This document shows, piece by piece, positions 9,997-14,927 of a stretch of DNA of 64,000 nt. Under the pieces are notes generated by a model. That model saw only the letters and a program-made list of their open reading frames with translations. It did not search any database and had not been told where the DNA came from. The position numbers were made by a program, and so were the translations under genes. The stretch is from positions 1 through 64,000 of the forward strand of contig JAIQFY010000026.1 of the NCBI GenBank assembly GCA_020072965.1. Direction: 5' to 3'. Origin of the DNA: Terriglobia bacterium. GTDB taxonomy: Bacteria > Acidobacteriota > Terriglobia > JAIQFV01. Every line of letters begins with the position of its first letter. Within the stretch, counting starts at the first letter, position 1.

Positions 9997-10452
9997 GGTC
10001 GGGTCTGTGGAGGATGAGTCACTCTAATTTATCATTCTCAATAAATTTTGGTGCGAATGAACCAAGATCATGTGTCATTGGCTCGCGAAGGGTCTTACCA
10101 TCTGCGCAGGGCGGAGGTGGGAGGGTTATGGCACGGGCCGATCGCAGCACGGGCCGACCTCTACTAATCGGTCTGCAAAATCTGAAATTTCAAATTTGAG
10201 ATTGGAAACTTAGCGGTGCCACAGAAGCTGATCAGCCACGACGAGGGAAGCCAGAGCGGCTCAACGAGGTGAATCTCACGCTCCCGATTAGTTTTCCTGG
10301 GTTTCTCAGAGGAGAGTGTGAAGTCTTTCTCTGCTCATATCAGAACGAAGCTACGACTTCGAATCCCGGGTTAAATTCAGGTTGAACCGATTGTTGGACT
10401 GGCGGGGAAAAGGGAGATTCAATATTCCGATCGTGACATCACATCGAGCACT
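9997..10452. other. Convergent intergenic region, no gene seen
   Basis: This lies between two genes that end toward each other. It contains the AT-rich string AAATTTGAGATT at 10192-10203, which recurs in the same orientation at 12631-12642 on the other side of the next gene. No intrinsic terminator with a T-run was found. Confidence 0.45.
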
Positions 10453-12456
10453 TCAGCGCTTCGCGGCTTTCTTCAGGGTTTCCTCCAATCGATCATCAAT
10501 ATCCTTCAATTCCCTGTAACTGTATAAGTCGGGATTGAAATCCAGCCCGTGTTCCAGCCGCAAATGGCGGATCAACGTCAGCTTTTTCGGCTCCTCCGTC
10601 ACACCATCCTGGACCTGCGCCGGTCGTCGATTCGCAGGCACCTTGATGGTCGACCCCACTGATGTTTCCATCGGCCGCACTTCCCCGGGAGAGGGTTTCG
10701 CGATTGCTCGAGGAGAGTTGGATAGTTGATTTGGCTTTGCGGGGGTGGGAAACCTCGATCCTTCCGATGCCGGCGTCCGCGTCGGCTGGGCCGGGCGGAC
10801 GGATGGAGGCGTCGACTTCTGTTCGGATTCGCGGAAAGAGGGGGCGGGACGGGCGGATTCGACCGTTGAGGGCCCCGGTTGGACATTCCTCAAAACCCCA
10901 ATCATTAAATAGACTGCCAGCAACATTAGAACCGGGACAGCGATGTAAAGACTCCTTGAAAGGAATTCTGTTGACAGGGACAAACTGAGCCTGGGAGAGG
11001 GTACGATGTTAGTGAATGGAAGTTTCTGATTCTGCCTGAGCGGAAGGGGTTTTTCCGAGCCGATGATTTCTTTCGGCGCCTGAGTGGATTGAGAGAAGGG
11101 GATCGGATGCTCGGTCGAACTCTGCGGGGTCCTTTCACCCGAGATGGAAGCATCCACGCTTTGACCTCCCATCCGCTCCTCAACCGTGGGTTCGATCCGC
11201 TGTAACCTGCTTGCAGACTCCCTTGCGTTCCCCTCGGCCTGTCTGCGCCGCTGCAAGTCCGATGACTCCTGGCCTTCGCGGGGCCTGTCCTTTCTTTCCC
11301 GCGTTTCCTCATAAAATGCCTGGAGGCGAGAGCTTGAGCCTTCGTGTTTCGGGGGTTGACGATATGTGGCCGACGATGTCTCATTCGACCTTGATTGGAG
11401 AGGGGGGACATAGCCCTCTTGCTGCCCTGCGGTCCCCCATGATCGGGATATCCTGCGAGGAGTGACCGGATAGATTCCCTCAAAGAAAGATTCGACCCCG
11501 AGGGGATCATTCTCCTGGTCATGCTCTCGGATCGAACTCGGTGAGGACAACTCATGTTCGAAGGGAACCCCGGCCCTCTTTGACTTGATGCCTGCTTCGG
11601 TTCCGGGCTCCTGGGTCCCGGGTTGGCTTCCCCAAAGCATCTGTGCCGCACCGTGAAGAGTGCTCTCGGCATGGGCCGGACTCTTTGCTATCTGAATCGG
11701 AGGAGGAGGTTCCGGCACGATGATTCGCTCAAAAAGTTCGGAGAGATTTTTTTCAGACAAGGCAGGCATTACATCTTCAGTCTCATCCGGCGGATTCAAA
11801 CCCACATCCCGTGCTGAAGGGTGGTTCGAGGAGGAGATAATGGGTGCCTCAATTTCGTAGGGAGGCGGCTCCTTAATGACCTCCACCAGGGGATTGTTAT
11901 ACCGTTTCTCCAAAATGGCGCAATCCCTTTCCGACAGTCCATTCCTGATCGCTTCGCGGATCACTCTCTCCAGCAGGCTTTTGAAGCCCATCCACCCTAA
12001 CGCCCTTCTGAAATAAACAACTTCGCCAGGTGCGGGAAGGACCGTTCGAGGGTTGATGTTCAGGAAGACACGCAATCCAGAATGCGAAGTAAATTCCGCT
12101 TGGAAGGCGTCGCTGCTAACCTCGAGAATGTACTCGAGGAAAAGAATCTTAAAGAATAGGACCGGATCACCTTCCGAGGATTGAGGGCGAAGGTCATAAA
12201 GGCTGAAAAAGGGCTGGGTGATGGCGCGAAAATCACATGCAGAGGTGAGCCGCTCGAAAAACCCCGTCGGAACGCAAACCCGCACTGCCTGTGCTGACCG
12301 TCGTTCAGGTTGGGAAGGATGGGGTCTCGGAGTCACGGTCGCCTCATTCGCTATGACCCGATGGTAAGGGCAGGGAGAGACTTTGTCAAGGTTGTGACCG
12401 TTTCTTAGGCGTGAATCCAAAGGTTCAATCTCGGCAAACGTTTCAGTTATCAACAC
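10453..12456 (-). CDS. Membrane-anchored protein with transposase-like (DUF772-type) N-terminal domain
   Basis: The 667-residue product begins at GTG 12456; later starts are possible because the first 40 residues are poorly conserved in appearance. Residues of about 62-175 resemble the N-terminal helical domain of IS5/IS1182 transposases: an FFERL...AIT start, a DPVLFFKILFLEYIL helix, SGLRVFLNINP, then FRRALGW and a long helix. No DDE catalytic domain follows. Instead there is a 320-residue Pro/Ser/Glu-rich disordered stretch, one membrane helix at about 503-525 (LYIAVPVLMLLAVYLMIGVL), a second disordered linker, and a short helical tail rich in charge. It looks like a domesticated DNA-binding or oligomerisation domain tied to the inner membrane. 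The function is unknown. Confidence 0.75.
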   Translation of the reverse strand: MLITETFAEIEPLDSRLRNGHNLDKVSPCPYHRVIANEATVTPRPHPSQPERRSAQAVRVCVPTGFFERLTSACDFRAITQPFFSLYDLRPQSSEGDPVLFFKILFLEYILEVSSDAFQAEFTSHSGLRVFLNINPRTVLPAPGEVVYFRRALGWMGFKSLLERVIREAIRNGLSERDCAILEKRYNNPLVEVIKEPPPYEIEAPIISSSNHPSARDVGLNPPDETEDVMPALSEKNLSELFERIIVPEPPPPIQIAKSPAHAESTLHGAAQMLWGSQPGTQEPGTEAGIKSKRAGVPFEHELSSPSSIREHDQENDPLGVESFFEGIYPVTPRRISRSWGTAGQQEGYVPPLQSRSNETSSATYRQPPKHEGSSSRLQAFYEETRERKDRPREGQESSDLQRRRQAEGNARESASRLQRIEPTVEERMGGQSVDASISGERTPQSSTEHPIPFSQSTQAPKEIIGSEKPLPLRQNQKLPFTNIVPSPRLSLSLSTEFLSRSLYIAVPVLMLLAVYLMIGVLRNVQPGPSTVESARPAPSFRESEQKSTPPSVRPAQPTRTPASEGSRFPTPAKPNQLSNSPRAIAKPSPGEVRPMETSVGSTIKVPANRRPAQVQDGVTEEPKKLTLIRHLRLEHGLDFNPDLYSYRELKDIDDRLEETLKKAAKR

Positions 12457-12467
12457 CGGCCAGGAGG

Positions 12468-12491
12468 ATTTAGGGCGGGCTCGCCCTAAAT
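12468..12491 (-). promoter_or_regulatory. Hairpin just upstream of the 10453-12456 gene
   Basis: ATTTAGGGCG and CGCCCTAAAT form a perfect 10-bp stem around a 4-nt loop. It lies 12-35 bases before the GTG start, where it could fold in the mRNA leader over the ribosome-binding region or serve as an operator. No similar sequence was noticed at other genes. Confidence 0.4.
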
Positions 12492-12997
12492 GGGAATGTC
12501 TTCAAGATTGCCCCTCTCCCCCCGGAAGTACGCTATCGGGCGTACATTCAAGGGGTTAAGGCTGATCTGGGTTCCTTGATCGTGGCTGTTCGTCTTCTCT
12601 GTCACTGCTCAGTTCCCGACCTCTAATTTGAAATTTGAGATTTTGCCAGCCGATCGAGGGAAGGCTTGGGCCTCCGCCGTGGTCGCTTGGTGCGCTTGCC
12701 TCGCCTCCCTCTCTATGAATTTCTCTAAGTTCTCAAAGTCAAGATTTTCGAAAGCCCCGATCTCACGGGGGTCCTTCGGATCTGCTGATGAAACTAAACA
12801 GGAACCATCTTTTTAGAAATTGGATCTCTTCGGGTTTAAATTGGACGGTCCTGGTTTTAGATGTTGGGCGGGTTGAGAGGGATTTAAATTTCGGAAACCA
12901 GGTTTCTGAGGGAGTGCGCTTTCGGGGGGCAATTGAAGCGGAACCAATCTTTCCGGGTTCCGCTTCAGTATTGCCACGATTCGATTGGACCGAGGTT
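12492..12997. other. Intergenic, no gene seen
   Basis: About 500 bases lie between two minus-strand genes. The AAATTTGAGATT string shared with 10192-10203 is at 12631-12642, and a GTACGC/GCGTAC hairpin lies near 12517. The long plus-strand ORF that starts here runs antisense through the DsbA-like gene and has no domain. Confidence 0.45.
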
Positions 12998-13978
12998 CTA
13001 GTTGGGGCTCTTTTTCAACTCTTCCTCGATCACTCTTTGGAAGGAGCTGAAGGGCTGCGCGCCGGGGAGCTGACGTCCGTTAATGACAAAACCCGGAGTC
13101 CCGGTAATGCCGAGGGACTGTGCCTCGGACATGTCCGCTTTGATCTGCGGCAGCGTCAGCTTGTTGTCATAGCACTCCTCAAATTTCTTGGCGTCGATCT
13201 GCGTCTTTGCAACATATTCAAGGGCCTTGGCTTTGACGTTGTCGGCGGTAATGGAGGACTGGTTTTCAAAGAAATTGCGGTAAAGCACCCAGAACGCGTC
13301 ATTGTTCTGCCGATTGACGCAGAGACCGGCGATAGCGGCACTCTCGGCCCACGGATGAATTGGAAGAGGGAGGTTCTTGTACACCAGCTTTACTTTATCT
13401 CCAAATTGCTTCATGACATCGTTCTCGACAGTGCGATAAGCCTGGCTGCAATACGGGCACTGAAAATCAGAGTACTCCACGATGGTCACCTTGGCATTCT
13501 TGTTGCCACTGATTGGCGCATTTGCCGTGTTAATCCTCTCCATATTTTCAGCGAAGGGGTCTTTTGAGAGGTCAAGGATCTGTCCGACGATTGCGAATTT
13601 ATTGTCGGGGGTTACCAGAACATCGAGGCGGTTTGAGTTTGGACCATTCTTAAACTCAATCGTCACCGAATCCAGCCCGCTCATCTTAGAAGCGGTTCTT
13701 CCTACGACCGAGATGTCGGTATTGGGGGGTATTTTGCTCGTGAACGCATTCTGGATGGTATCAATGAGTCGCTGATTCGCTTTATCCACTGGCGACGGAG
13801 CCGCCGGGGGAGTCGACAGATCTTTGGCCTCCGGTTTTTTAGGGGTTTCTGTGGGAGGTTTGCCAGGAGTCGTGGCCTGTTGGCCCGCCGCCATCAGCGG
13901 AACTGAGAGGGCAAGGATCACCGCACAAGTCAGAACCCGCGCTATAAGGGAAGGATCTTTTCGAAATCCATTATTCAT
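12998..13978 (-). CDS. DsbA-like thioredoxin-fold protein (DsbA/Com1 family)
   Basis: The 326-residue exported protein starts at ATG 13978; a TTG eight codons earlier is an alternative. A signal peptide covers about residues 1-31, then a Pro/Thr-rich linker and a small N-terminal domain. The C-terminal thioredoxin domain has the CPYC redox pair (C174, C177) in EYSDFQCPYC and the cis-proline loop GTPGFVING. These features fit a periplasmic disulfide oxidase or isomerase. The next upstream gene encodes Skp, so both may serve envelope protein folding. The gap to skp is about 120 bases. Confidence 0.92.
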   Translation of the reverse strand: MNNGFRKDPSLIARVLTCAVILALSVPLMAAGQQATTPGKPPTETPKKPEAKDLSTPPAAPSPVDKANQRLIDTIQNAFTSKIPPNTDISVVGRTASKMSGLDSVTIEFKNGPNSNRLDVLVTPDNKFAIVGQILDLSKDPFAENMERINTANAPISGNKNAKVTIVEYSDFQCPYCSQAYRTVENDVMKQFGDKVKLVYKNLPLPIHPWAESAAIAGLCVNRQNNDAFWVLYRNFFENQSSITADNVKAKALEYVAKTQIDAKKFEECYDNKLTLPQIKADMSEAQSLGITGTPGFVINGRQLPGAQPFSSFQRVIEEELKKSPN

Positions 13979-14099
13979 AAAATTTGACCTGATTCCTTTC
14001 AATGGCCCACTGATCTCTTCGATTCATCAGGGGAGCCTTAGGTTGTTATCGTCCGTGCTACTTCTCCACCCTTTGACCGTCGGAAGGATGCAGCGCCCG

Positions 14100-14684
14100 C
14101 TACTTTTTCGGTGTAGCGGGGGCGGCCGGCTTTGGCGCCGAAGCGGATGAGGATTGGGCATCAAATCGGCGGACGATCTCTGTTGTTATATCTGTAGTAG
14201 GGCTGAAGTAAAGCACACCGCCCTGGGCGGAGGAGCTATCAATCACGAGGGAGAAGTTTTGCTCGGCGGCATAGGATTGGATAACCCTCAAGATCTTGTT
14301 TCCGATGGTGTTGATTGTCTCGTCCTGGAGCTGCTTGAACTCGTTGCCCGCATCCTCACCGGCGCGAGTCAACTCTTTTTGCTTGGCATCGATAAGCTTT
14401 GACTTTTGTGTCTGAGCTTCTTCGCTGAGGTTCTTTTCCTGCCTCTTCAATTCAGCTGTCAGGTCTTCGATTTCCTTCTTTTTCTTTTCAAGCTCAGCGG
14501 CCTTGGCGTCGTACTTGGTTTTCAATGTATCCGCCGCTTTCTTGCCCTCGACGGACTCGAGGATGGCGGTCTGCATGTTAATCACGCCTACGCGTGAGGC
14601 GTTGGAAGCCTGCGCGAAAACAAGCGAAGCACACAAAAGTCCCATCATTCCAAGAAATGTTCCAGCAACAATTCTAATCTTCAT
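14100..14684 (-). CDS. OmpH/Skp-family periplasmic chaperone
   Basis: The start ATG 14684 has GAGGAG five bases upstream, which rules out a longer ORF beginning at 14738. The 194-residue protein has a signal peptide (to about residue 25), the conserved strand VGVINMQTAILES, a long Lys/Glu-rich coiled coil of roughly residues 45-115 that forms the tentacles of the Skp trimer, and a C-terminal beta region. It ends in an Ala/Pro/Lys tail. Skp holds unfolded outer-membrane proteins in the periplasm. A bamA or lpxD neighbour, common elsewhere, is absent. Confidence 0.9.
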   Translation of the reverse strand: MKIRIVAGTFLGMMGLLCASLVFAQASNASRVGVINMQTAILESVEGKKAADTLKTKYDAKAAELEKKKKEIEDLTAELKRQEKNLSEEAQTQKSKLIDAKQKELTRAGEDAGNEFKQLQDETINTIGNKILRVIQSYAAEQNFSLVIDSSSAQGGVLYFSPTTDITTEIVRRFDAQSSSASAPKPAAPATPKK

Positions 14685-14927
14685 TGAATCTCCTCGATAT
14701 GGATTGCTCTTGACCCTTATGCACCGATCGCGGGTCAACTAAGCTTCGCTGCGCCTTTGGGTCGGGGTGGGGCAGAGGGCGAATTCAGGCAACGCGAGCG
14801 TGGGGGTCAATTTCCTGGCCCGCGTCCATCAACCGCTTGGACCCTTCCGGTTTAAGCTTTGACTTGTGCGGGCGGCAATGACAGCAAACATAAGCCCGCC
14901 TGCAAAAACCATGCATCATAAAACACA

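Follow-up and report, generated by a model that had tools for sequence, protein, structure and literature searches.

How does the N-terminal domain of an insertion sequence transposase come to stand at the head of a membrane protein, and what might it do there? The question is raised by a gene in a 64,000-nucleotide stretch from Terriglobia bacterium (GCA_020072965.1, contig JAIQFY010000026.1, positions 1-64,000, forward strand), called here the window. The gene is real and is present, with gene order unchanged, in all three family genomes searched. The orthologue in G001, a genome of the same genus, is 67% identical to the window protein, and that in G002, from a sister genus, is 34% identical overall and 58% identical in the N-terminal domain; the G002 contig belongs to a Terriglobia MAG. 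The three orthologues are open frames of 614-663 amino acids, and these three sequences are the whole basis for what is said of the family below.

The open frame at 10453-12456 (-) has 667 codons when counted from an upstream GTG at 12456, the start assumed in an earlier sequence-only reading of the locus. The G001 and G002 orthologues begin at a GTG matching GTG 12336, which is residue 41 of that longer frame. Upstream of the matching GTG, the frame is broken by one TGA in G001 and by two stops in G002, and the pattern TTGACA-N17-TAxxAT lies just upstream of it, at an equivalent position, in all three orthologues. Because of the stops in both orthologues and the conserved promoter in between, GTG 12336 is taken as the true start, and the protein is therefore 627 residues long; judged from the frame, the first 40 codons of the longer version are non-coding. 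The parts of the gene are as follows.

10453..12336, minus strand: the gene with its corrected start, GTG at 12336, stop at 10455-10453, 627 amino acids
12361..12389, minus strand: sigma-70-like promoter TTGACA-N17-TACCAT, 10 of 12 consensus positions, no other found in the region
11887..12288, minus strand: DUF772-like domain (N-terminal domain of IS1182/IS5 transposases), residues 17-150, seven predicted helices
11899..11916, minus strand: ILEKRY, residues 141-146, the same in every family member
10981..11886, minus strand: low-complexity linker, residues 151-452, net acidic, presumably disordered, pLDDT mostly under 50
11632..11646, minus strand: linker motif AQ(M/L)LW, residues 231-235, kept in all three orthologues
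11491..11508, minus strand: linker motif DPLG(V/I)E, residues 277-282, kept in all three orthologues
10891..10947, minus strand: single transmembrane helix, core residues 464-482, model helix 454-485
10603..10881, minus strand: Pro/Ser/Thr-rich linker, residues 486-578, presumed periplasmic, 19% Pro and 22% Ser+Thr
10456..10602, minus strand: predicted C-terminal helical hairpin tail, residues 579-627, 49 residues, pLDDT 83-93

DUF772 is the sole Pfam match of the window protein, with residues 57-124 colinear to profile positions 6-73 of 74. The window copy scores E 0.19-0.22 as a whole protein and 0.019 as the domain alone (12-15 bits), under the curated cut-off of 23.1 bits for this model (PF05598). 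That the window copy by itself is under the cut-off could suggest a helical bundle of other descent whose likeness to DUF772 is convergent, as could the behavior of a transposase profile built from Terriglobia only, largely from one subgroup, which separates just the G002 member from shuffled sequences. Convergence nevertheless seems improbable. The G002 domain is above the cut-off, at 3e-6 and 27.6 bits (23.9 bits at full length), and DUF772 matched none of eight shuffled domains. Every member of the family is matched by the models DUF772, IS1182 (best 1.8e-5), and IS5_4 (best 4.4e-5), and a tblastn search of 72,556 plasmids (7.3 Gb) with the G002 domain as query returned annotated IS1182 transposases as its top matches (E 2e-4 and 4e-4), so that several independent models and tblastn agree, in register, from one end of the domain to the other. 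Against DUF772 transposases of Terriglobia, hhalign reports 89% and E 2e-6 for an alignment of 109 columns. As far as such comparisons go, the N-terminal ~130 residues are homologous to DUF772 as it occurs in IS1182/IS5 transposases, and the sequence-only reading holds in the main; the DUF772-type domain it proposed for this region now occupies residues 17-150.

In the IS1182 alignment, similarity extends to the first catalytic motif and then stops. At that point E143, within ILEKRY, aligns with the Asp of the VVDS motif of IS1182 transposases, which we take to be the first catalytic Asp of DDE transposases, giving an apparent Asp to Glu replacement in which the equivalence of the columns comes from the alignment only. 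Neither DDE_Tnp_1 nor DDE_Tnp_1_6 matches any of the three family proteins, in keeping with the earlier claim that the DDE domain is absent, while both IS1182 comparators have them, as the nearest transposases do. The full-length IS1182/IS5 equivalog model NF033551 (270 bits) is reached with only 16-21 bits, over positions ~39-138 of 488. The likeness to IS1182/IS5 transposases, built of DUF772 (PF05598) plus DDE_Tnp_1 or DDE_Tnp_1_6, is thus one of the N-terminal part, colinear to the first catalytic motif; the present protein differs in its Glu, in having no DDE domain, in its added linker, membrane helix, and tail, and in being neither multicopy nor mobile. R36, P37, F77, and R96 (domain-alignment numbering) are among the positions at which the family and 21 transposases never vary, so some conserved Arg is retained; the HSTFSKNR-type motif of transposases is mostly lost in the family, its Arg excepted.

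AlphaFold predicts an identical set of seven helices for the domain whether it is given only the three orthologues or an alignment of 24 rows that includes transposases (pLDDT 86 and pTM 0.83 for the latter). A search of the PDB returned no fold match and no solved DUF772 relative. Its all-helical matches were weak (best Z 4.5-4.7, globin-like), as were those of Foldseek (E about 0.8 or worse), and both sets were judged uninformative. Since there is no solved relative or fold match, the fold does not inform on DNA binding. The domain has a net charge of -1 to +3 and a pI of 5.8-9.2, neutral to mildly basic, which is not decisive either because the DUF772 domains of true transposases span a similar range (pI 5.4-10.5). 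DNA binding by the domain is plausible.

The sequence-only reading had also described a disordered region, a membrane helix, and a helical tail, and each has its counterpart here, as ~300 and ~90 low-complexity residues on either side of the helix and a tail in which two helices are predicted. The transmembrane segment has a hydropathy of 2.5-2.8 in all three orthologues, with no second such segment. Near the start of this helix, in the pattern YIxVPxL, all three have a Pro. Flanking charge is +1 to +3 on the N side and 0 to +1 on the C side, a small difference that weakly favors an N-inside/C-outside topology. Identity to the G001 and G002 orthologues is 56% and 21% in the linker of residues 151-452, and 88% and 49% in the tail.

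Selection follows the same partition. In comparisons of the window with G001 by the NG86 method, dN/dS is 0.08 in the N-terminal domain, 0.10 in the membrane segment, and 0.07 in the tail, as low as in the neighboring genes (about 0.05-0.17), against 0.44 and 0.39 in the linkers of residues 151-452 and 486-578; with dS at 0.6-1.1 over the gene these ratios are rough, yet the parts of this one gene stand in clear contrast. Purifying selection is strong on the domain, the membrane helix, and the tail, and is relaxed on both linkers. In view of this contrast, the gene is a working one in which the structured ends both matter. The truncated transposase domain is the one feature in favor of a decaying insertion sequence remnant, read through by chance, and that explanation is hardly credible here: it is refuted by the selection pattern, with the structured parts at 0.07-0.10, and opposed by three open orthologues that conserve start, promoter, membrane helix, and tail.

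The gene is single copy and syntenic in the three genomes. Names of neighboring genes are our reading of their translations. One flank carries genes for an aldehyde dehydrogenase, a Skp/OmpH-like protein, and a DsbA-like protein in all three genomes, and in the window and G001 it continues into Zn ABC-type genes; the opposite flank has, in all three, an Fe-S oxidoreductase, an SDR, and a universal stress protein. At 12998-14738 (-) in the window, just upstream of the gene, the DsbA-like (thioredoxin-fold) gene adjoins the Skp/OmpH-like gene, an arrangement seen in all three genomes. Relatives of the Fe-S neighbor outside the family are only ~34-39% identical, and the locus therefore cannot be traced outward to other families.

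The gene was not found in the other 296 genomes searched of the class Terriglobia (Acidobacteriota), and a search with the N-terminal domain in 396 genomes of the phylum gave no credible match beyond the window. The protein matched nothing in plasmids, PADLOC, or viral contigs, and in PHROGs one family member had a weak transposase match only (0.011). The same fusion was sought elsewhere in Acidobacteriota and none was found outside the bacterium's own family; one match was rejected as sitting in an unrelated gene (G077) and another because its locus is dominated by a long TonB-receptor-like ORF (L014). We also scanned 250 genomes of the class with PF05598 and inspected weak or long-frame matches for fusions of DUF772 without DDE. 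No inspected match resembled the protein described here: one was a long transposase-like ORF (L068), one a false and apparently unrelated match (L071), and one a transposase fragment whose frame continues into a threonine-dehydrogenase-like gene (L066). In this last case (L066:214-1917 (-), genome G112), a DUF772-type transposase fragment is in frame with an L-threonine dehydrogenase-like gene, and is probably an insertion sequence remnant just upstream of it. A tail-only search of 329 class genomes gave weak matches to RND pumps, DNA ligase, FliG-like, and other unrelated proteins, which were rejected; they have a short Y-x-Y-x-E-L-K-D stretch in common, judged to be chance.

An origin can be proposed on these grounds. 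In the family ancestor, an IS1182/IS5-type transposase gene would have been truncated directly after its first catalytic motif, and the 5' portion left would have come to encode the N-terminus of a membrane protein with a single pass. This fusion would then have become fixed in the chromosome, with envelope-protein genes on one side and the Fe-S oxidoreductase gene on the other. The protein is most likely bitopic in the inner membrane, N-inside/C-outside. Its cytoplasmic transposase-derived domain, on a flexible tether of ~300 residues, may bind specific DNA, or with lower probability a protein partner. In the periplasm, a Pro-rich stalk would carry the helical hairpin, which may sense or dock to an envelope partner. 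The sequence-only reading had suggested a domesticated DNA-binding module tethered to the membrane, and of this the transposase origin, the anchor, vertical inheritance, and purifying selection stand. A DNA-binding module of transposase origin, tethered at the membrane, is our best explanation of the whole, held tentatively and at somewhat under an even chance. It is also possible, if on balance doubtful, that in one Acidobacteriota family the end-binding module of a transposase, having lost the catalytic domain, became a membrane-tethered DNA-binding protein that links the chromosome to an envelope signal or position.

The example of CadC, which is integrated in the membrane and can both find its DNA site and be localized by it (PMC6320335), makes such an arrangement physically reasonable. 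The likeness to one-component regulators of the ToxR/CadC type (PMC6320335) includes the one membrane helix, found in all three orthologues, and presumably a cytoplasmic N-terminal domain that may bind DNA and a periplasmic C-terminus. The N-terminal domain here is instead transposase-derived, the tether is 300 residues long, and a small helical tail takes the place of a folded sensor; no Pfam or NCBIfam match to the winged-helix Trans_reg_C, the N-terminal DNA-binding domain of ToxR/CadC regulators, is found in the protein.

The domain may alternatively have lost DNA binding and serve now for oligomerization or partner binding, in an envelope scaffold that would bridge a cytoplasmic complex and the periplasm, with AQxLW and DPLGxE as docking peptides. 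The neutral charge of the domain and the two conserved linker motifs would suit such a role, as would a tail selected as strongly as the domain and the fact that, in all three genomes, a DsbA-like thiol oxidoreductase and a Skp/OmpH-like protein are encoded alongside. Against it, charge fails to set the domain apart from real transposase domains, and adjacency is weak evidence because the gene has its own promoter. We regard the scaffold as a substantial possibility that falls short of an even chance; it and DNA binding are nearly tied in weight. RodZ-type bitopic proteins have a similar outline of cytoplasmic helical domain, one membrane helix, and periplasmic tail, but profile search finds no homology of the present protein to them.

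The known cases of transposase domestication in bacteria are mainly ones that reuse the catalytic or nuclease part. The present protein lacks the catalytic part; of the transposase only the DUF772 domain is kept, under strong selection, as part of a membrane protein. Recruitment of mobile-element proteins by prokaryotes is itself well known (PMC8987985), and Cas1, derived from casposases, is a comparable case of a transposase part recruited to a host function under purifying selection (reviewed in PMC8987985); the present protein discards the catalytic part rather than reusing it, and the product is a membrane protein. A narrow search of titles and abstracts in the DUF772 literature, like the families we scanned, gave no description of DUF772 alone on a membrane protein. 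Many insertion sequences carry DUF772, and a copy standing clean and by itself is a chance to ask what the domain binds.

Two kinds of repeat lie near the gene. A perfect hairpin was at first placed just before the start codon; the hairpin exists, in near-perfect form, but not beside the real start.

12469..12490, no strand: near-perfect palindrome TTTAGGGCGGGCTCGCCCTAAA, upstream of the promoter and outside the gene

With the start at 12336, it is 133 bases upstream of the start, past the promoter. It occurs once in the genome and has no counterpart at the G001 or G002 orthologues. Inverted repeats of ~94 bp, at 10167-10260 and 12561-12654 and 78% complementary, bracket the gene, as the terminal repeats of a mobile element would bracket its cargo. 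That the gene is such cargo is nonetheless very unlikely, since the repeat is a dispersed family with 37 matches in the window genome and 17 in G001. The G001 locus has only a 24-bp piece of it, on one side, and the repeat is not found in G002, though the gene and its neighbors are in place in all three genomes. The cargo view is largely refuted: these are not terminal repeats of the gene, and the gene does not require them. The dispersed repeat has a palindromic core with consensus ATCTGAAATTTCAAATTTGAGAT plus as many as ~100 additional bases, and is possibly a REP/MITE-like family of the genus.
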